Shown here: piece by piece, positions 16,313-56,254 of the stretch
How positions within the stretch are numbered: the first letter of the stretch is position 1
Layout of the letters: each line of letters begins with the position of its first letter
From: a virus
Length of the DNA stretch: 64,000 bases
Virus record (IMG/VR): IMGVR_UViG_3300042372_000291
Location: 43,732 to 107,731 of that record
Direction: 5' to 3' (one strand)
Notes under the pieces: generated by a model
What the model was told of the DNA's origin: nothing
Seen by the model: the letters and a program-made list of their open reading frames with translations, nothing else
Database searches by the model: none
Program-made: the position numbers and the translations under genes

Positions 16313-17017
16313 ATGTCAAAAAAAATTATTTTTAAAGCAATGGATGAAGAAGGTTTTAATATTCAGGATAGACCATATCCAGCATCCAAAGCTATTCCAG
16401 AATGGTGGAAAAATCATAGCATATATGATAATGGCTCAAACAAGCTTGAATTGATTAACAGAACTCCAAACTTTTCTTTTAAAAAATGTACTCCAATGCT
16501 AGATGCATTAACGTCTGGCTATATAATACCCTTACACGCAGATGTATTAGTTTCAAGACAAGAAGACAGAGTTTTTCTATCTTGGAAAACAGAAAAAGAT
16601 ATTTTTCAACTACATGGTCAATCATCACATAATGTAGAAGCACCACCTGGATATAGTAATTTAGTTTTTAAATATTTAAATACTTGGATTCCAATTACTC
16701 CAAAGGGTTATTCTGTATTAATTACAAGTCCATTTGGATATAGAAATTTGCCAATGATGGCTATACCAGCTATAATTGACTCAGATAGATCTTTATTAGA
16801 CATGGCAAACCCTATGTGGATTAAAGATGATTTTGAAGGCATTATAGAGAAAGGAACTCCATTGATACAAGTTACTCCATTTAAAAGAGATGATTGGGAA
16901 GCCTCTTTTGAGCACTTTAAAAAAGATGAATGGAAAACTCATACTGAAAAGAACTTTTCAGCAAACATAGTAGGACACTATATTAAGAATATTTGGTCAA
17001 AAAAAAACTATAAGTAG
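16313..17017 (+). CDS. WWK-family paralog 1 of 8
   Basis: 234 aa, ATG at 16313 preceded by AGGGAATTGGTT. Family pattern: P.PASKAIPEWWK (about residues 20-31), C..M.D..TSGYIIPLHADV (about 56-75), PKGYSVLITSPFGYRNLP (about 128-145), then IIEKGTPLIQVTPFKRDDWE (about 180-199). Closest to the copy at 24531. The C-terminal half recalls the DUF6065 family as I remember it; that link is tentative. Function unknown. It is the only copy on the + strand. Confidence 0.75.
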   Translation: MSKKIIFKAMDEEGFNIQDRPYPASKAIPEWWKNHSIYDNGSNKLELINRTPNFSFKKCTPMLDALTSGYIIPLHADVLVSRQEDRVFLSWKTEKDIFQLHGQSSHNVEAPPGYSNLVFKYLNTWIPITPKGYSVLITSPFGYRNLPMMAIPAIIDSDRSLLDMANPMWIKDDFEGIIEKGTPLIQVTPFKRDDWEASFEHFKKDEWKTHTEKNFSANIVGHYIKNIWSKKNYK

Positions 17018-17274: not shown

Positions 17275-17345
17275 GGGATTGAAGCATTAAAGTGATGCTC
17301 AGGACTTTTAATCCTGAGAAGAAGGAGCATTACCTTCCAGTCCTA
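17275..17345 (+). tRNA. aberrant tRNA-Lys-like cloverleaf (TTT)
   Basis: All four stems form with standard lengths: acceptor GGGATTG/CAGTCCT (7 bp, two G.U), D stem GCAT/ATGC, anticodon stem CAGGA/TCCTG with loop CTTTTAA (anticodon TTT), T stem GAAGG/CCTTC with a 7-nt loop. But the D loop (TAAAGTG) lacks GG and the T loop is AGCATTA instead of TTCRANN, so the normal elbow cannot form. It fills the space between the Met and Ile tRNAs exactly. It may be a functional reduced tRNA, a decoy or a decaying gene. Confidence 0.5.
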
Positions 17346-22273: not shown

Positions 22274-22987
22274 TTATACCCCCCTATAGAACTTAAAATA
22301 CTTGGTTTTTAAGTTTATATTATGTTTGTTTATTTTTTTTAAATCTTTTTCTGTAGCATCTCTTACCTCAATTAATGGTTTTTCTTTTTTAAATGGTATA
22401 AAATGTGCAATTGGAGTTCCTCTCTCAATAAATATTTCTTTTTTATCTGAATGAATTAAAAACTGTATATTCATTTCATTGTATTTATCAATTTGTCTAA
22501 CTCCAGGTACTATACTGAAATCTTCATTAAAATGAAAATATGTTGGTAATTGATACATTAAGTATTCTTGATCTGAAAAAACCATCCAAGGACATTTCAT
22601 TTTTAAAACCGCATAAGAATTTTTTCCAAAAAATTTATGTTGTGAATAATCTAAATACTGATTATTTGGATGCGTTCCCCATTCAAAAAGTGTGTTAGGA
22701 GTTCTCCATCTCCATTCTCCAGTTGATGAATCCACATAAATAACTGTATCTGTCCACATAGGCATTATGTATCCATTAGAAAAATAATCAGCAAAAGATG
22801 GACATATTTTTGCATTTCCAAAAAATGGTCCATTTTCTATATTTATGTTATTTTTTTCTGTTGGCATATTTTTCCACCAGTCTGGTATATATTTAGATAC
22901 TGGTTTTGGAACACAGCTTTCAATACTTTCTAATCCTGGAATAGTAGAAATGAAACTTATCTCTGGTTTATTTTTTTTGCTAATCAT
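22274..22987 (-). CDS. WWK-family paralog 2 of 8
   Basis: 237 aa. PKPVSKYIPDWWKNMP (about 27-42), ICPSFADYFSNGYIMPMWTD (about 61-80), FHFNEDFSIVPGVRQID (about 154-170) and FIERGTPIAHFIPFKKEK (about 188-205) follow the family order. Closest to the copy at 35598 (shared FISTIP/FVSNIP start, YFHFN-type motif). Ends at the base before the XapX start. Function unknown. Confidence 0.75.
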   Translation of the reverse strand: MISKKNKPEISFISTIPGLESIESCVPKPVSKYIPDWWKNMPTEKNNINIENGPFFGNAKICPSFADYFSNGYIMPMWTDTVIYVDSSTGEWRWRTPNTLFEWGTHPNNQYLDYSQHKFFGKNSYAVLKMKCPWMVFSDQEYLMYQLPTYFHFNEDFSIVPGVRQIDKYNEMNIQFLIHSDKKEIFIERGTPIAHFIPFKKEKPLIEVRDATEKDLKKINKHNINLKTKYFKFYRGV

Positions 22988-23631: not shown

Positions 23632-24531
23632 GCCATAGATTTTTTTGAAATCTACCCCAGCAAATTTTTCATATGCTTTTAAATGCCTATAATTGCCAGC
23701 ACCAAAAACTCCTTTTTCAGTTCCACATAAAATTAATTGTTGTCTTTCTTTTGATTTTTGTTCTATTTCTTTCCAAGAAAGCTTTCTTATATTTTTATCT
23801 TTCCATATCTTGCTATAGTTTGCACGATTATAAAAATGATATACAATGTTCTTTGATGGAGAATATATGTCCCATCCCCTAGTCCATGCTCTCATAGCAA
23901 AACAAATCTCTTCTCCAAAAAAACTAATATCTGGATCGTATGGAACTTCCTCTACAATATTGCCAGAGGTAAAAATAAAACCAGCAAGGACTGTTGACGA
24001 CTGCTCTGGATTTTCCCTTTCACTATTTATAAAATCTAATCTTTTAGCAGTCCACTCATTTCTTTTATTTAAAGATGGCTCTTGTCTAGTTGGATATGGT
24101 GGCTTAGTTTTATCATTTTTAATAAAATACATTTGTTTGTTTGGTTCTATATGAAACGGCGCTGGAAAATAAGATAAAATTACCTTGTCATTTTTAGCAA
24201 TTAACTTTGCTGAATTATGTTGATCAATACATTCTATATCCCAGTTTTTTTCAAATATGGTGTGTGAATCTATTTGTAAATAATAATCTTCCCCATCGTA
24301 CTGACTCATTGCAATTGATCTAGCATATCCAGCACCTTTTGCATCTCTTGGATGCATTTTAATTAATCGTAAATTTTTAACCCACGATAGGTCTGGAATA
24401 TCTTTTTCTAAATCTTGAATAACTACAGAAAAGAATAATCTATCTGGATTAAAGGCATTATCAATTGCAGATCTAATAGTTCTAGTTAATTCTGGATCTC
24501 TATAGCTAGCAATTGAAATAAATATTGTCAT
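23623..24531 (-). CDS. GlcNAc-type glycosyltransferase
   Basis: 302 aa. IFISIASYRDPELTRTIRSA (about 3-22), YYLQIDSHTIFEKNWD (about 83-98) with its DxH in place of DxD, and DISFFGEEICFAMRAWTRGW (about 202-221) are the hallmarks of the GlcNAc family (Pfam PF11397, as recalled) related to the Skp1 GlcNAc-transferase. It would attach a sugar, probably GlcNAc-like, to phage or host targets. ATG overlaps the end of the next gene's stop. Confidence 0.8.
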   Translation of the reverse strand: MTIFISIASYRDPELTRTIRSAIDNAFNPDRLFFSVVIQDLEKDIPDLSWVKNLRLIKMHPRDAKGAGYARSIAMSQYDGEDYYLQIDSHTIFEKNWDIECIDQHNSAKLIAKNDKVILSYFPAPFHIEPNKQMYFIKNDKTKPPYPTRQEPSLNKRNEWTAKRLDFINSERENPEQSSTVLAGFIFTSGNIVEEVPYDPDISFFGEEICFAMRAWTRGWDIYSPSKNIVYHFYNRANYSKIWKDKNIRKLSWKEIEQKSKERQQLILCGTEKGVFGAGNYRHLKAYEKFAGVDFKKIYGLT

Positions 24532-25229
24532 TATTTAAAACTTTTTTTCGCTCTCTTTGAAGAATAATAACCATAAACTTTAGTAAAAACTTTTTCAGAT
24601 TCATTATAAAATTTATTTTCACCTGGGTTTGTAAACTCTGATTCCCAAGACTCTCTTTTAAAAGGAATAACTTGTGCCATTGGCGTTCCCTTTTCAATTA
24701 CACCCTCAAAACCATCTTTAATAAAAAATGGACAGTTAATTGCTGTAGTCAATATATCTGTATCAACTATTCCAGGTATTGATCTTATGGGAAGGTTTTG
24801 ATACCCTACTGGATGAGTAAATAAGCATGACCATCCTGGAGGAGTTAAAATGTTCCATCCATGATAGTATTTGTATGCAGCCTTTCCAAATCCAGAAGGA
24901 ACTTCAAATGTACTTGATTGTTGAAGACTCCAAACATCTAAAACTCTTTCCTGTGTTGCCCATTTTATTACTGGTATGCCATTTTCTTGTATAACTAATA
25001 TGTCACACCACAATGGAATAATATATCCAGCTGTTATCATATCAATAGTTGGAGCACATTGTTTTACTGTAACATTTGCGTGTGGACCAAGATCAAGCTT
25101 TGTAGATGTAGAATATTTTGGTATTTCTTTCCACCAGTCTGGAACCATTTTTGCTGCAGGGACTGGTTTTTCTCTTACATTAAATACATGATCAGATTGT
25201 GCTTCAAATATAATTTTATTAGTTTTCAT
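24531..25229 (-). CDS. WWK-family paralog 3 of 8
   Basis: 232 aa. EKPVPAAKMVPDWWKEIP (about 20-37), QCAPTIDMITAGYIIPLWCD (about 57-76), FTHPVGYQNLPIRSIPGIVD (about 136-155) and VIEKGTPMAQVIPFKRESWE (about 175-194). The best match to copy 1 at 16313. Its stop abuts the glycosyltransferase start at 24531 and its ATG overlaps the glycosylase end. Function unknown. Confidence 0.75.
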   Translation of the reverse strand: MKTNKIIFEAQSDHVFNVREKPVPAAKMVPDWWKEIPKYSTSTKLDLGPHANVTVKQCAPTIDMITAGYIIPLWCDILVIQENGIPVIKWATQERVLDVWSLQQSSTFEVPSGFGKAAYKYYHGWNILTPPGWSCLFTHPVGYQNLPIRSIPGIVDTDILTTAINCPFFIKDGFEGVIEKGTPMAQVIPFKRESWESEFTNPGENKFYNESEKVFTKVYGYYSSKRAKKSFK

Positions 25230-25711
25230 TTATTTCTTTCTTCGTGAGTAACCCAGTAATAGTTACATCCAACGCAGCAGGGTTTATTATAAATGCTATG
25301 TTTTGCATAAGCAAAATGTGCATAGTGTATAGGATCTTTTTCAAATAAACGAGCTTTATGAGTAGTTGTAATACGCATCATTTTACTTTTATCTGAAAAC
25401 CATTTTGGCATATCTGTTCCCCATGTACCACTATAGCTTAATTCTAATTCTTGTATATTTGAATTATTTTTATCTGTTTTTATACCACGATTGTTAGCTT
25501 CATTAATCATTATATTTGCGTATGTTCTAAGAGAATACTCATACCCTTTCCACATAAGGACTGCTGGATGATTCCTCCATCCTCCAGTTGGAGATGCATT
25601 AGACAGCACTTTTAAAATTTGATACGCCTCAAGTATTTGCTTATTTAATCTTTTAGAATCAAGAACTTGTGCAGACTCATAAATGTTGCTATGTGGAAAA
25701 AATGTTTGAAT
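25226..25711 (-). CDS. pyrimidine-dimer DNA glycosylase-like protein, ATT start
   Basis: 161 aa read from ATT at 25711. The N-terminus QTFFPHSNIYESAQVLDSKR, followed by QILEAYQIL and GWRNHPAVLMWKGYE (about 50-64), matches the MSMEG_6728-type relatives of endonuclease V that remove UV dimers; those begin MQTFxPyxxfxxSAxvLDxxRLgKQ. No ATG, GTG or TTG lies upstream of that motif, while a GGGGG ribosome-binding stretch precedes ATT. A GTG at 25609 would remove the conserved start. C-terminal CCVGCNYYW may bind metal. Confidence 0.7.
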   Translation of the reverse strand: MQTFFPHSNIYESAQVLDSKRLNKQILEAYQILKVLSNASPTGGWRNHPAVLMWKGYEYSLRTYANIMINEANNRGIKTDKNNSNIQELELSYSGTWGTDMPKWFSDKSKMMRITTTHKARLFEKDPIHYAHFAYAKHSIYNKPCCVGCNYYWVTHEERNK

Positions 25712-25740
25712 GATATGCCCCCAATATTAGTTACACTACT

Positions 25741-25768
25741 ATTATATCAAATATAGATAATAAGTCAA
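25741..25768 (-). promoter_or_regulatory. leftward promoter TTGACT-N16-TATAAT
   Basis: Complement: -35 TTGACT (25768-25763), 16-bp spacer ending TGA, perfect -10 TATAAT (25746-25741). It is followed by about 25 bases of leader with GGGGG before the ATT start. Confidence 0.7.
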
Positions 25769-25770
25769 GA

Positions 25771-27327
25771 TTAACTATGAATCTTTTTTAAGATTTCATA
25801 ATGAGTTTCAGCGTTGTTAACTATATTTCTCCAATGTATTGACATTTTTTCTCTTTCTGCAAAAATTGGATCTAGCTCTTCTTTAACATTTATTTTGTAT
25901 AAATGGTTTAGTGTGTCAATACTCCATTTATTTAATGGATAATAGTCAAAACCTTGAGTAGCTATAACCATATACAAAATATTATCCATTTTTTGCTCAA
26001 TGTATGACTTTACATTTAGATCAATGATAGAGTTGTTAAACTCACGTGACGATATTCTATTCCAATATTGACTATCATCTCTCTGTGTAAGCTGAAAATG
26101 CATAGTAACAAAATCAAATGTATTTTGTATTCTTGTAATTGTACTTCTATTAAATGTTTCAATATCCCACGAAGTAATTGCGCCCCGATTAGAAAGAATT
26201 CCACAAAAGTCTAGAAGTGCACCGTGAACAAATAATAATCCAGTGCTTTCTAGTGGCTCTAAAAATGCAGCAGACAAGCCTATTGCTAATACGTTTCCAA
26301 CAAAACATTTTTCGTAATATCCATTTTTTACAGTTATATGTTTAAAGTTTAATTCTTTTGATCTGTTTGGATTATATACAGCCATTTTATCGGAATCTAG
26401 ATAATCTTTAAATTCTTGTAAAGCATCTTCATCACTGATAAATTCATCACTATATATATAGCCTGTTCCAATACGTGACCAAAGTGGTGTATTCCAAGCC
26501 CACCCATTTTTTAATGCTGTTGCATTAGTAAAAGTTTGCATCTCTTTATCTTTATCTGTATATTGAACAGGTGCAAAATAAGCTTTATTATTTGGTAAGT
26601 TGTCTTTAGTGCTAATGAATGGAACATCAAGATGCTGTCCTAAAAGCAAACTTTTAAATCCAGTGCAATCAACAAATAAGTCTCCATGTATTTCAGTTCC
26701 ATCTTCTAAAACAATAGACTCTATTGTTCCATCTTTTTTATCTATAATTTTATTAACAGTTCCTAAAATTCTTTTTACACCTTTAGGTGTACAATATTTT
26801 TCATAAAGCCAAATAGCAAATTTATTTGCATCAATTTGAAATGCCAAATCTCTTTCTGGACGATATGATACTCCGAATGATTCATCGTGTTCCATTACAA
26901 TTTTATTAGTATAAAAAGAAGAATCCGCTGGCCAATAATATCTAGCAAAATCACGATTATCTGTTTCTGGATAAAGATATTTTTTTAATGGCCAATCATT
27001 TAATTCTAGTACGTGTGGTTGTCTTGCTGCATGTCCAAATGGGAAAAAAAATGTTGGAGATGTTTCAGTTTTAAAATTAGTAAAACCAAGACCAAGTTTA
27101 AAAGCTGCATCAGTCTCACGCATAAACTCATCTCTATCTATGTCAAGAAACTTTAACCAAGTTACAAACTCAGAAGTTGTACTTTCGCCAACACCAATTC
27201 TTGGTATTTCTGCACTTTCTACTACCAATATTTCTTTTTCAGGGAAAGCTTTAATAAATGTAGCAGCACTCATCCAGCCAGCGGATCCTCCACCAACAAT
27301 TACTATTTTATTTATATTTAACGTCAT
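25771..27327 (-). CDS. flavin-dependent tryptophan-halogenase-like protein
   Basis: 518 aa. VIVGGGSAGWMSAATFIK (about 9-26) is the FAD-binding GxGxxG-type motif, ESAEIPRIGVGESTT (about 37-51) and AAFKLGLGFTNF (near 74-85) supply the conserved region with the catalytic Lys, and GWAWNTPLWSRIGTGYIYS near 270-290 is the WxWxIP-type motif of flavin-dependent halogenases (here WAWNTP). The family halogenates tryptophan or related indoles using FADH2 and halide. Substrate cannot be told; the ferredoxin at 16066 could help reduce the flavin. Overlaps the next gene by 4 bases. Confidence 0.85.
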   Translation of the reverse strand: MTLNINKIVIVGGGSAGWMSAATFIKAFPEKEILVVESAEIPRIGVGESTTSEFVTWLKFLDIDRDEFMRETDAAFKLGLGFTNFKTETSPTFFFPFGHAARQPHVLELNDWPLKKYLYPETDNRDFARYYWPADSSFYTNKIVMEHDESFGVSYRPERDLAFQIDANKFAIWLYEKYCTPKGVKRILGTVNKIIDKKDGTIESIVLEDGTEIHGDLFVDCTGFKSLLLGQHLDVPFISTKDNLPNNKAYFAPVQYTDKDKEMQTFTNATALKNGWAWNTPLWSRIGTGYIYSDEFISDEDALQEFKDYLDSDKMAVYNPNRSKELNFKHITVKNGYYEKCFVGNVLAIGLSAAFLEPLESTGLLFVHGALLDFCGILSNRGAITSWDIETFNRSTITRIQNTFDFVTMHFQLTQRDDSQYWNRISSREFNNSIIDLNVKSYIEQKMDNILYMVIATQGFDYYPLNKWSIDTLNHLYKINVKEELDPIFAEREKMSIHWRNIVNNAETHYEILKKIHS

Positions 27328-27557
27328 TTATTTAAAGGCTCCCTAGTTACCAATATTATAGCACCTTCCATTTCAAGTGCTTTTTTAACCATAGAAACAT
27401 ACTTTATTGCTTCTATTTTTTCATCGTGTGTCATATTAATAAATGATTTTTCATCCAGTTTTATAGTAATAAAGCTAGTATTATCAATAACGTTTACACC
27501 AAAATTTTTTGGAGGAATAATAGAATGAAATGCTCTACGCATAGAATCTGTATACAT
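27324..27557 (-). CDS. hypothetical 77-aa protein upstream of halogenase
   Basis: MYTDSMRRAFHSIIPPKNFG... then beta-alpha elements (FITIKLDEKSF; EKIEAIKYVSMVKKALEMEG; AIILVTREPLNK). Overlaps the halogenase start and follows directly on 27557, so it is part of the same operon and may serve the halogenase. Not recognised. Confidence 0.6.
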   Translation of the reverse strand: MYTDSMRRAFHSIIPPKNFGVNVIDNTSFITIKLDEKSFINMTHDEKIEAIKYVSMVKKALEMEGAIILVTREPLNK

Positions 27558-35601: not shown

Positions 35602-36341
35602 GATGACTTATTTCTTCTATTTTTTATATACCAATTTTTAAATATTGTTTGTCTTGTTACTCTATCTTTTTCTTTTCTAACTTTATCTTCATCATTCATA
35701 TCTCTAACAATTAAATCAAACTCATCTCTTTTATATGGAAACATTTGAACAAGCGGAGTACCACGCTTAATAAAAATTTCTTTACCATCACCATGATATG
35801 CAATTTCTATTTTATGTTGAAAGCTTATATCGGAATCTACTATTCCTGGAAGCGCACTAAAGTCTTTATTAAAGTGATAGAAAAGCGGTAATTGCATAAT
35901 AGAGTATCCAGGATCTGTAAACATATGCCAAGGAGAATCAAATTGAAATATTGCTGTAGCATTAGTACCCTGAAATTTATGTTCAACATGATTAAGATAT
36001 TGTGAAGGATGAAATATAATCATATTAAAATCAGAGTTGTGCCCTCCACATTTCCAACTCCATTCTAGTGTTTCTTTATCAAAAGATATAACTGTGTCTG
36101 CCCACATTGGTATAATATATCCTGCAGAAAAAACGTCTGGAAAAGATGGGCACTGTCTAACAGACATACTTTCTGGTCTGTATTTTGCCTCTTCCATATT
36201 TTTATCATATGGAACTTTTTTCCACCAGTCTGGCACAAATCTGCTAGCTGGAACAGGCTGAATTTCTTTTATTTCTGATAAATATGGAATATTAGAAACA
36301 AATTCAATTTTTGGATTTTTACTCATGTACTCACTATCCAT
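35598..36341 (-). CDS. WWK-family paralog 5 of 8
   Basis: 247 aa. VPASRFVPDWWKKVPYDK (about 28-45), QCPSFPDVFSAGYIIPMWAD (about 60-79), FYHFNKDFSALPGIVDSDIS (about 151-170), IFIKRGTPLVQMFPYKRDEF (about 188-207). Closest to copy 2 (22274). ATG 36341 or 36326 are both possible; the former overlaps the upstream stop. Function unknown. Confidence 0.75.
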   Translation of the reverse strand: MDSEYMSKNPKIEFVSNIPYLSEIKEIQPVPASRFVPDWWKKVPYDKNMEEAKYRPESMSVRQCPSFPDVFSAGYIIPMWADTVISFDKETLEWSWKCGGHNSDFNMIIFHPSQYLNHVEHKFQGTNATAIFQFDSPWHMFTDPGYSIMQLPLFYHFNKDFSALPGIVDSDISFQHKIEIAYHGDGKEIFIKRGTPLVQMFPYKRDEFDLIVRDMNDEDKVRKEKDRVTRQTIFKNWYIKNRRNKSS

Positions 36342-38534: not shown

Positions 38535-40139
38535 TTATAACCTCCTTAATGACATAACAGAACTAACTATGTTAGAAACCAGAATTACTGGAATAATAAC
38601 TTCTTGAACTTTTTCTCTTTGATCATCTGTCATATCCTTACCCCATTCCGATGGGCTAAGAATCTTATCCAAGTCTATATTTGTTAAAACTGCCAGTGGA
38701 TCTTCTAAAAATTTTTCTGCTTGTATTTCAGTAACCGCATCTGCTAGAGTATAAGGCATAGGGGCATCAGCATTATTTTCTGCCATATCTGCAAATTGAA
38801 CAACAGCTACTGCTAGGGCTGGATTTTCTTTTGCTGCTTCTGCAATTAATGCAATTTCATCTGCCTTAATGCCAAGATCTGAAGCAAAAGATTTTTTGGC
38901 TTCTGGTGACAATTCAGTTAGAAGATCTGATACTGCTGACATCAATTTAACATCATTAACACTAATTAGTTTATTTAAATTTTTAAGTTCTTCTTCAGAA
39001 ATGGCATTGTCATCATTTGTGTTATTATCATCTGGTGTTGGTAATACAAGATCTTCGTCAACAGGTTGCTCAGGTTCAGGCTCTGGCGATAAATCTATAT
39101 CCGTTGGCTGAGGTGAAGGCTCTTCTGAAGGCTCTGGAGAAGGATCACTTTCTTCATTCTCCCCATCTGTGGTTTCTGGGTTTGGAGAAGGATTGGAATC
39201 TTCTGGTTCAGTTTGCTCTTGATCATCAGGGAATCTAGGATCCTCTGGAGTAATAACTTCTGGCTCAACTTCAACATCTGGTTCTGGTAAATTTGGCTCT
39301 TCTATTGGTTCAGGTGTTAGATCTTCAGTTGGTTCTGTTATTGGTTCTTCAACTTCTTCATTATTTATTGCAGCAATAAGATTGTTAATATCAGCAATTT
39401 CATTTGCTAATGTTACTGCCTCAACAACTTCAGCCTGTACTTCTTCTGGAGTTAGTGGTTCTTCAGTTGGTGTAGGAGTAGGTTCTGAAATTGGCTCTGG
39501 AGCTAATGTTGGAATAGGATCTCCTGCTTGTATTTGTGTAGCACCCCATGCCTCTAAAGAAACAATATCACCATTATGGAGTCTAACTCCAGTTCTTAAA
39601 TTTGGATATTCAGGTCCTTGATAGCTGTAGGCAACAGAAATACCGCCAGTATTTGTAATTGCAACAATGATATTAATATTGCTTGGAGTTGAAGCATTCC
39701 ATTGTCCAAATGGAATTACTTCTAAATCTAATTGAAATCCACCTTCAGAATAAGATATATTTAAAGTATCTGGTGCGTTATAGTATCCTGAAACCCAGTC
39801 CATAGAGTATAAAGAAATAGATGGAGTATTTGGATATTGCCAATATGTATTATCTGGTTGTCCAAATGTGATTACTGAATTTGTTGTAGCATAAATATTT
39901 GAATATTGAACACCATCAAATGTAATTGTTGTTGCTATTGGTATCTGATAAGAAGTATCATCTCCGCCACAAGTATCCATTGTGTGTACCGTTGGAACTT
40001 CGTCACCCTCGTAGGCTGCTGCTATAGTTTGAGACTGTATATAGTTAACACAAGTAGCATATGCATTCTCTGGAAAACCAAAAAGACTTGTAAAAAGAAT
40101 TCCCGCCACTGCTGTTATGCGTAGGAATTTTTTGTTTAT
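38535..40139 (-). CDS. secreted cell-surface/adhesin-like protein, ATA start
   Basis: 534 aa read from ATA at 40139: the leader NKKFLRITAVAGILFTSLFG then ends AYA, a classical signal peptide, and AGGAG lies 7 bases before ATA. The next usable start (GTG at 40109) would drop the basic part of the leader. A globular beta domain (about 30-220) is followed by a Pro/Glu/Thr-rich spacer (PEPISEPTPTPTEEPLTPEE, SPEPSEEPSPQPTDIDLSPE), then helical segments and a C-terminal hydrophobic helix (VIIPVILVSNIVSSVM). It may coat the virion or the host cell. Function unknown. Confidence 0.7.
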   Translation of the reverse strand: MNKKFLRITAVAGILFTSLFGFPENAYATCVNYIQSQTIAAAYEGDEVPTVHTMDTCGGDDTSYQIPIATTITFDGVQYSNIYATTNSVITFGQPDNTYWQYPNTPSISLYSMDWVSGYYNAPDTLNISYSEGGFQLDLEVIPFGQWNASTPSNINIIVAITNTGGISVAYSYQGPEYPNLRTGVRLHNGDIVSLEAWGATQIQAGDPIPTLAPEPISEPTPTPTEEPLTPEEVQAEVVEAVTLANEIADINNLIAAINNEEVEEPITEPTEDLTPEPIEEPNLPEPDVEVEPEVITPEDPRFPDDQEQTEPEDSNPSPNPETTDGENEESDPSPEPSEEPSPQPTDIDLSPEPEPEQPVDEDLVLPTPDDNNTNDDNAISEEELKNLNKLISVNDVKLMSAVSDLLTELSPEAKKSFASDLGIKADEIALIAEAAKENPALAVAVVQFADMAENNADAPMPYTLADAVTEIQAEKFLEDPLAVLTNIDLDKILSPSEWGKDMTDDQREKVQEVIIPVILVSNIVSSVMSLRRL

Positions 40140-40182
40140 GGGGCTACTCCTAATTAATTAATTAATCATATTATATCATGAT

Positions 40183-40231: not shown

Positions 40232-41380
40232 TTACTTAACAAGTGTGACCTTTGCCTTTGGGTTCTTTGCGTTCCACTTCTTAGCAAGATCATTGAATGC
40301 CTTTTTCATATCAGCGATTGCCTTAGCATTTGCAGCCTTGACTGCATCTAGCTCTGTCTTAGCAGCAGCCTGTGCATCAGCAAGAGCCTTATCTGCAGCA
40401 ACCTTAGCAGTTACGGCATCAGCCTTCAACTTAGCAATTTCAGCAGCAGCAGTAATAGCAGCAGCATCAGCAGTAGCCTTTGCAGCAGCTGCATCAGAAG
40501 CAGCCTTTGCAATAGCAGCAGCAAGTGCAGCATCTGCAGTTACCTTATCAGCAGCACGAGCAGCCTTTTCTGCAGCGAGTGCAGCATTAGCGGTAGCAAG
40601 TGCACCAGCAAGATCAGATACTGTTACGATTGCAGTCTGAGAAGTTGTTGCCAACTTGATTGTTGGAACAGATGTTGGAGCAGTAATAGATGCTCCGACA
40701 GCAACAGTTCCAGCAGTTGCAGGAAGTGAAATCTCTGATGTGTAACGACCTGTTACAAGAGCATCAGCAGTTACTGTTCCAGCAGTTGCGCCACCAAGGG
40801 TAGTAACAGTTACTGTATCAGCAACAGCGTTGCCGAAAATATCTGCTACATCAAGAGTTGCAGTTACCTTTCCAGAAATATTTCCTGAAGCAGGGATTGA
40901 CATCTTAAGATCATATGCAGGACCTGCAACACCCTTAAGATAAATTGTTGTTGCTGCACCAGTTACAGAAACTGTAACAGCAGAAGCAGCAGTGCTTGTT
41001 GTGTATGCATATACAGTCGCTGTTGTTGAAGCAGGCGTTACTGTAATTGAAGATGATCCAGCAGATGCATTAACTGTTGAACCAACTGCAGATACTAGGC
41101 GTGTATTAGCACCAACTGCAGTAAATGTTACTGGTGTTCCAGCAACTACTGTAGCAGTGATAAGAAGTGCTTCGTTGTTTGTTGCAGTTGTGGTATCTGC
41201 AACGCTAACTACGTTGTCAGAAGGAACCTTAACTGTGAATGGTGAGGCTGCTGTACCAGAACCAGATACTTCAGTTGTTACGTCTACTGAAACGGTATTG
41301 GCACTTGCAGGTGTCACTACGAGTGTGCCCAGTGTCATGGCTGCAACCACGGCAAGAGCGATTTTCTTAAATGAATTCAT
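40232..41380 (-). CDS. secreted Ala/Thr-rich surface protein
   Basis: 382 aa from ATG 41380 (AAGGAGAAAA upstream). Signal peptide NSFKKIALAVVAAMTLGTLV then VTPASA. The mature part is a Thr/Val-rich beta domain (about 30-260) followed by an Ala-rich coiled coil (about 270-370; LAAEKAARAADKVTADAALA...) and a basic tail NAKNPKAKVTLVK. Its base composition is visibly richer in G+C than its neighbours and its codons look host-like, so it may be a recent transfer from the host. Perhaps a host-cell coat protein mimic. Confidence 0.7.
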   Translation of the reverse strand: MNSFKKIALAVVAAMTLGTLVVTPASANTVSVDVTTEVSGSGTAASPFTVKVPSDNVVSVADTTTATNNEALLITATVVAGTPVTFTAVGANTRLVSAVGSTVNASAGSSSITVTPASTTATVYAYTTSTAASAVTVSVTGAATTIYLKGVAGPAYDLKMSIPASGNISGKVTATLDVADIFGNAVADTVTVTTLGGATAGTVTADALVTGRYTSEISLPATAGTVAVGASITAPTSVPTIKLATTSQTAIVTVSDLAGALATANAALAAEKAARAADKVTADAALAAAIAKAASDAAAAKATADAAAITAAAEIAKLKADAVTAKVAADKALADAQAAAKTELDAVKAANAKAIADMKKAFNDLAKKWNAKNPKAKVTLVK

Positions 41381-41406
41381 TTTTCTCCTTGTTTGATTCA
41401 TCGTAT

Positions 41407-52877: not shown

Positions 52878-53611
52878 TAATCAAACTTCTTTCTATGCCA
52901 AAAAAATTTTTTATATCCATTTGTAAAAGCAGACGTTAACTTATTAATAATTTTTACATATGCATAATGGTCATTTTCAATAATGTGAGAAGAAAAATCC
53001 TCTCTCTTAAATGGAATAATCTGAACTAATGGGGTTCCAGCTTTTATTGTTCCAGTAAATCCATCTTTCACCCAAAAATTATATGCCTCTCTTGCTGGGA
53101 ATGTATCTGTATCAATAACTCCAGAAATTGCTAGTAGTGGTAAATCGTATCTATGAGATGGCTGAGTTACAAAAATACTATAGTCTGGATCTGTTTTTAT
53201 TCCCCAAAGAAGATTAATTCTAATAACTGTTTTACAGTATCCTTCTGGAACATAAAAATTAGAAATAGCATTATTATTTGTTAAACCAACATACTCAGTG
53301 GCATTATTGTTGGTATCGTTATACATTGCAGTTTTATGATAAAACTTAACAATGTCTTTGCTTGATGTATCTATATGTATGTCATATGGCAAATATAATG
53401 TATAACCAAAATTCATACTGTCACTAATCGCTGGACAGTTTCTAACAGTAGAAAAATCTCTTAAATTTTGATTAGATAATTCTTCTGCTATTGTATGATA
53501 TCTTGGCATATCTTTCCACCACGAAGGTTTTGGAACTTGATGAGAGGCTGTGGGCTGTGTATCGGAAGTACACAAGCTATCCTCTAGCCTTTCAAAATAT
53601 ATATTTGCCAT
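52877..53611 (-). CDS. WWK-family paralog 7 of 8
   Basis: 244 aa. HQVPKPSWWKDMPRYH (about 24-39), CPAISDSMNFGYTLYLPYD (about 59-77), FVTQPSHRYDLPLLAISGVI (about 147-166), GTIKAGTPLVQIIPFKREDF (about 190-209). Its stop coincides with the DnaE start. More divergent at the start than copies 1-3. Function unknown. Confidence 0.75.
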   Translation of the reverse strand: MANIYFERLEDSLCTSDTQPTASHQVPKPSWWKDMPRYHTIAEELSNQNLRDFSTVRNCPAISDSMNFGYTLYLPYDIHIDTSSKDIVKFYHKTAMYNDTNNNATEYVGLTNNNAISNFYVPEGYCKTVIRINLLWGIKTDPDYSIFVTQPSHRYDLPLLAISGVIDTDTFPAREAYNFWVKDGFTGTIKAGTPLVQIIPFKREDFSSHIIENDHYAYVKIINKLTSAFTNGYKKFFWHRKKFD

Positions 53612-55526: not shown

Positions 55527-56254
55527 ATGTATGTTTTTTTACTCCACCATCTATTTTTATAAGTTCTAATAAAATCTATTTTAGATGCACTTTGTTCGTT
55601 ATGTTCATATTTTGGATCAAAGTCAACGCTTTCAGATTTCCAATCATCTCTTTTAAAAGGAAGTATTTGAGCTATTGGTGTTCCTTCTTCTATAATTCCT
55701 TCAAAACCTTCTTTAAGAAAAAATGGAAACTGTAGTGCGTTTGGATGTTTATCAGTATCAACTACTCCACCAATAGTTGTAAATGGTAAATCGTGTCTTT
55801 GATGTGGATGAGTAATTAATGTGCTATATCCTTTTGGTGTTCTTATTCCCCAATATGTAATCCACCTAAAAAAATCTGGACAATGGCCAAATGGAATTGG
55901 ATAATTAGATAACCCCTCATACCCTTTATGCTCTAATGGTTTCCAGTGAACTGCCCAAGATATTCTTGGCATGTATGAAGACTCTGACACATTTTCAACC
56001 ATTATGGCAGATGATAAAGTTACTGTATACCCAGATGTTAATGAATCAACTATTGGAACACATAGTTTATACGTGCCAATCCCACCCTTTTTTATTAGAG
56101 AAAAATCATCACCGTTGCCAGTTGTAAATAATGTATCATTTTTATACCAGTTTGGAACACACTGAGTTGATGGTTTTGGTGGCTGCATTAACGTTGGAAC
56201 AAAATCATGTAATGGCTCAAACTGAATAATTTTTGTTTTATTATTTTTCTTCAT
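55523..56254 (-). CDS. WWK-family paralog 8 of 8
   Basis: 243 aa from ATG 56254 (56284 is another possible start). PPKPSTQCVPNWYKND (about 25-40; WYK rather than WWK), CVPIVDSLTSGYTVTLSSAI (about 66-85), THPHQRHDLPFTTIGGVVDT (about 146-165), IIEEGTPIAQILPFKRDDWK (about 188-207). Overlaps DnaB's end and the primase start. Function unknown. Confidence 0.75.
   Translation of the reverse strand: MKKNNKTKIIQFEPLHDFVPTLMQPPKPSTQCVPNWYKNDTLFTTGNGDDFSLIKKGGIGTYKLCVPIVDSLTSGYTVTLSSAIMVENVSESSYMPRISWAVHWKPLEHKGYEGLSNYPIPFGHCPDFFRWITYWGIRTPKGYSTLITHPHQRHDLPFTTIGGVVDTDKHPNALQFPFFLKEGFEGIIEEGTPIAQILPFKRDDWKSESVDFDPKYEHNEQSASKIDFIRTYKNRWWSKKTYI

Follow-up and report, generated by a model that had tools for sequence, protein, structure and literature searches.

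A putative AUU start codon in a predicted PF03013 glycosylase-family gene of a freshwater, probably actinobacterial phage

The AUU start of Escherichia coli pcnB is a sporadic one that limits translation, as has been shown experimentally. Non-canonical starts are repressed by IF3 according to passages of PMC5472188, which also give ATT as the start of infC in E. coli, ATC as its start in Streptomyces and GTC as that of Streptomyces sigR. In Staphylococcus aureus, cvfC1 (AUU) and ccpN (AUA) are described in parts of PMC13009471 as each having an extended Shine-Dalgarno sequence, with reporter output in poor medium at about 10% of that from AUG. With the terms used, a search of the open-licence literature returned no phage gene with an AUU or AUA start.

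The window, that is, the whole stretch of 64,000 nucleotides analysed here (from IMG/VR record IMGVR_UViG_3300042372_000291), holds a gene for which the explanation put forward below is on the whole probable: that it belongs to the PF03013 glycosylase family, comes from a phage of actinobacteria and is translated from AUU (25711). The features concerned are the following:

25226..25711, minus strand: PF03013 (Pyr_excise; pyrimidine-dimer glycosylase family) gene, 161 codons, from the putative ATT start at 25711-25709 to the stop TGA at 25228-25226
25709..25711, minus strand: putative ATT start codon, aligned with ATG (93) or GTG (2) in 95 other distinct genes
25718..25722, minus strand: GGGGG Shine-Dalgarno sequence, 6 nt before ATT, duplex of -8.4 kcal/mol
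25741..25768, minus strand: promoter TTGACT-16-TATAAT, with TG one base ahead of the -10 element
25771..27327, minus strand: tryptophan halogenase gene (PF04820, E 3.2e-99), between the glycosylase gene and its usual upstream neighbour
27324..27557, minus strand: 77-aa gene, which directly precedes the glycosylase gene in many relatives
24531..25229, minus strand: DUF6065-like gene (Pfam match short of the curated cut-off); its ATG and the glycosylase stop overlap (ATGA)

The putative start resembles that of pcnB in being a sporadic, limiting AUU, the difference being that pcnB is a cellular gene and was characterized by experiment. As far as the passages on infC go, the phage gene would share with it an AUU start limited by IF3, a control presumed for the phage gene, but infC is autoregulated and conserved, whereas a single phage allele has the ATT. 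The sigR start is likewise described there as a non-canonical actinobacterial start repressed by IF3, although it is GTC and belongs to a host gene. The likeness with cvfC1 and ccpN is that a strong, extended Shine-Dalgarno sequence precedes an AUU or AUA; those genes are, however, bacterial and proven by ribosome profiling, whereas the phage genes are known from sequence alone.

The coordinates that the first-pass annotation had assigned to an ATT-initiated gene are exact, and the gene lies on the minus strand within an open frame that runs from stop to stop over 25226..25726. The first ATG, GTG or TTG in frame is a GTG at 25609, the 35th codon when ATT is taken as the first. The product scores 69.4 bits against the PF03013 profile, for which the curated cut-off is 23, and is thus a predicted member of this family. 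Of the 81 profile positions, the protein read from ATT matches 2-78, the protein read from GTG only 37-78, and T4 denV (endonuclease V) 1-77, so that the product shares with denV a match from the start of the profile. The two differ in that comparison by hhalign of the glycosylase (A1) with denV gave no meaningful match, and the activity here is only predicted. The predicted structure has a mean pLDDT of 91.1 and found no match in the PDB at E 0.001 or better, nor did the A1 profile match PDB sequences at E 0.1. Six BFVD models matched the structure at E 0.001 or better, mostly unnamed and none named glycosylase; one model named pyrimidine dimer glycosylase was reached only at E 0.54.

The gene appears to belong to a freshwater phage with an actinobacterial host. 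WhiB, exclusive to Actinobacteriota according to a passage of PMC10202952, was found in all six records searched and, among 14 control genomes, in Corynebacterium only. The nearest annotated terminases are those of Streptomyces phages, at about 53% identity. These observations together point to an actinobacterial host, which we infer.

Two scans for relatives of the glycosylase gene yielded 160 loci, 159 of them with a readable start (the truncated L007 was left out of the count), which represent 96 distinct genes including the window allele. The start column reads ATG in 93 of these genes, GTG in two and ATT in the window allele only (1/96), so that the glycosylase does not keep a non-AUG start across relatives. 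At the level of loci, ATG or GTG stands at exactly the codon of ATT in all 153 other readable ones. Since the two scans share contigs, three contigs appear twice and make up the six ATT loci. The ATT allele is identical over 6483 bp in these three IMG/VR contigs, which carry different metagenome ids; a single sequencing error is therefore unlikely, and ATT is a real allele. Comparison of the aligned codons indicates that ATT is the derived state of one lineage. No sister phage with the same halogenase arrangement was found beyond the three contigs of this one allele, which show no polymorphism.

The first-pass annotation had further proposed that a conserved N-terminal segment is encoded upstream of the first ordinary start. 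An alignment of 20 sequences bears this out, the motifs QTF..P and LD.KRLNKQILE.YQILKVLS being invariant or nearly so, and the family alignment and other phage copies, which it had named as the check, place ATG (93) or GTG (2) at the aligned codon of the 95 other distinct genes. Neither an unconserved segment nor relatives that use the internal GTG were encountered. Initiation at that GTG, giving a 127-aa protein, would have the advantage of the first canonical start in frame, but we consider it scarcely credible: it would drop the invariant QTF..P and LD.KRLNKQILE and PF03013 positions 1-36, its Shine-Dalgarno duplex is weak (-2.0 kcal/mol), and an ATG or GTG occupies the upstream position in 153 of 153 other readable loci. 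The GTG (25607..25609, minus strand) was rejected as a start on account of this weak duplex and of the PF03013 match cut to 37-78. ATT as the glycosylase start is well supported by these alignments.

The signals upstream of ATT are those that the first-pass annotation had described: the GGGGG stretch is present before it with a 6-nt spacer, and the TTGACT-N16-TATAAT promoter lies at 25768-25741, inside the 59-nt gap that follows the halogenase gene. A Shine-Dalgarno duplex as strong as that of ATT (-8.4 kcal/mol) occurs at 2.75% of 2000 random positions, and 9 of 42 long-ORF starts have a stronger one; of 1108 first canonical starts examined across 10 related records, 20 are likewise preceded by GGGGG. 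A promoter match of at least 11/12 within a 59-nt gap has a simulated chance of 0.0013, or 0.00015 with the TG extension, and 26 of 6396 real 59-nt windows (0.4%) reach 11/12. The gap itself gave no convincing match elsewhere among the fetched sequences. ATT is thus preceded by a well-spaced Shine-Dalgarno sequence and has no canonical alternative nearby, the next being at residue 35. A slightly longer N terminus could arise from an ATC one codon upstream, which is in frame, or from the TTG before the G-run with a +1 slip, for which TTGGGGG offers a site. Either route is most improbable, since the ATC is just 3 nt from the G-run, slippage requires two rare events, and the start in relatives coincides precisely with the ATT codon.

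The surroundings of the gene differ from those in its relatives. The letters at the glycosylase start are TAATG in 85 of the 96 distinct genes, and in many loci the stop of the 77-aa gene overlaps the glycosylase start (gap -1); other loci have additional sequence, with gaps of 124 to 1024 nt, between the two genes. In the window, it is the halogenase ATG with which the 77-aa gene overlaps, and the glycosylase gene follows 59 nt after the halogenase stop. Among 80 loci compared, a halogenase gene stands at this place in the window's own allele only. L046, L049, L052, L059 and L060 carry a different halogenase gene, of about 29% identity, immediately downstream of the glycosylase gene. The site between the 77-aa gene and the glycosylase gene (window 25711-27324; L004-L081) varies in content, its gaps ranging between -1 and 1612 nt in a manner reminiscent of an insertion hot spot. 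Downstream, the DUF6065-like gene at 24531..25229 is likely to be in the same operon as the glycosylase gene. The window contains at least six DUF6065-like paralogues (16316-16981, 22382-22909, 24531-25229, 35604-36320, 52886-53605 and 55631-56227).

Another reading is that ATT marks the loss of a start, the protein no longer being made in useful amounts and the promoter serving the downstream DUF6065-like genes. In its favour, ATT is unique to one allele, the gene has lost its customary coupling with its upstream neighbour, the promoter could serve the overlapping genes downstream, and a recent start mutation in a gene being lost would look identical today. Against it, the reading frame has no stops, 64 of 65 otherwise invariant columns are intact and a well-spaced Shine-Dalgarno sequence immediately precedes ATT; we consider such a loss unlikely. 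The 65 columns are those invariant in 19 relatives, and the window deviates from them at column 1 alone, the start. For the pairs that allowed its computation, dN/dS lies at 0.09-0.19; in the comparison with L004, the nearest relative, dS was saturated.

For initiation at AUU, the proposed course of events would be that a halogenase gene came to sit between the 77-aa gene and the glycosylase gene and broke the usual TAATG stop-start overlap. The glycosylase gene would have been left with its own promoter, a G-run Shine-Dalgarno sequence and a start altered from ATG to ATT. The strong Shine-Dalgarno sequence may then position the ribosome, and initiation with fMet-tRNA on AUU would be slowed by IF3, which disfavours this codon and on which the start presumably depends. 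Weak, IF3-limited AUU initiation rescued by a strong Shine-Dalgarno sequence, as in infC, pcnB and cvfC1, appears to be the likeliest mechanism. On sequence evidence, the gene would be a new phage example of AUU initiation and involve no new mechanism. A bolder proposal, which we regard as doubtful, is that freshwater-actinobacterial phages use a strong Shine-Dalgarno sequence with AUA or AUU as a deliberate switch, which would place selected genes, among them one that dozens of genomes conserve with no ATG at all, under IF3 control with an output tracking host physiology or infection stage, the glycosylase gene having joined this class since coming to lie behind the halogenase gene.

The suggestion in the first-pass annotation that initiation is relaxed in the phage or its host was addressed by a census of 10 related phage records, including that of the window. 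It covered 798 frames with a start expected from relatives, a count that keeps duplicates from 1-kb overlaps between pieces and may include some antisense frames. A canonical start was found at the expected place in 763 of the 798 (ATG 630, TTG 75, GTG 58), and 35 frames were flagged. Inspection of these by eye left three as ATT, the rest having a canonical start elsewhere or no clear expected start. This stricter census replaced a first one, discarded with 234 flagged frames, too many because aligned stretches extend upstream of true starts. The three ATT starts with a Shine-Dalgarno sequence, by our reading, are that of the glycosylase gene and one each in G009 and G010:

L209:14439-15146, plus strand (G009): DUF6065-like gene with a putative ATT start behind GGGGGGG, 6 nt
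L220:990-1323, minus strand (G010): second further gene with a putative ATT start, behind GAGG, 7 nt

For the G010 gene, the codon aligned with ATT is ATG in four of five orthologue frames, two of them alike in context. Three cases among 798 make ATT starts rare and a matter of individual genes, so that relaxed initiation is not supported as a general trait and survives as recurrent, gene-by-gene ATT and ATA starts. Low-rate AUU and AUA starts would accordingly recur across the phage group in particular genes and not generally. Relaxation of the host through a phage initiator tRNA was also considered and rejected. Hallmarks of initiator tRNAs are an unpaired first acceptor position and three consecutive G-C pairs bordering the anticodon loop. 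In the phage tRNA-Met(CAT) the first acceptor bases are paired and the stem beside the anticodon loop lacks such a G-C triplet; by our reading it is thus an elongator. Rfam matches in the window were to tRNAs only. One of these, at 17275-17345 (42.3 bits), lies between tRNA-Met and tRNA-Ile and is absent from the ARAGORN output.

The companion ATA start reported at 40139 also appears to be real:

38535..40139, minus strand: signal-peptide gene with a putative ATA start at 40139-40137, near the terminase gene
40147..40151, minus strand: AGGAG Shine-Dalgarno sequence, 7 nt before ATA
40175-40170, minus strand: TATAAT, upstream of the ATA gene

The family of this gene was scanned from three members, and 80 of the 289 to 298 confirmed loci in each scan were retained, giving 212 loci (L096-L175, L311-L442), of which L160, L363 and L387 could not be read and were dropped and L136/L368 counted as unclear. 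For each member, whichever start-like codon in frame had the best Shine-Dalgarno sequence was taken as the start, a choice from which ATG or GTG could have come out and did not. The 57 distinct 5' ends among the loci kept comprise ATA 26, ATT 14, TTG 16, unclear 1 and ATG 0; a non-AUG start is thus kept across the relatives of the ATA gene. In 30 of the 57, some ATG or GTG does occur in frame in the stretch from the preceding stop to the hydrophobic segment; in one group, L108-L111, a stop codon immediately precedes ATA; and some ATT members have their nearest GGAGG at an unusually long distance of 11 nt. Within this comparison the ATA gene is the stronger non-ATG case than the glycosylase gene, and its family recalls the conserved non-AUG starts of cvfC1 and ccpN. 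Of the earlier proposal of low-expression tuning, the portion that fits is that for the ATA gene, whose non-ATG start is conserved. The structure model of its product is poor (pLDDT 43.1), the protein has no family in PHROGs at E 0.001 or in Pfam above the curated cut-off, and its family has no relative in the annotated phage collection or the collection of genome contigs.

With such starts, ordinary gene finders, which use ATG, GTG and TTG, misread both genes: they would remove 34 conserved residues from the glycosylase and the start of the signal peptide from the ATA gene product. If confirmed, the ATA-gene family would provide an accessible natural series (ATA, ATT, TTG, never ATG) in which to study why a gene with a strong ribosome-binding site retains a weak start, and would let one ask whether phages exploit IF3. 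The ATA gene and the terminase gene flank a second gene with a likely signal peptide (40232-41401), the C-terminal half of which is Ala/Lys-rich.
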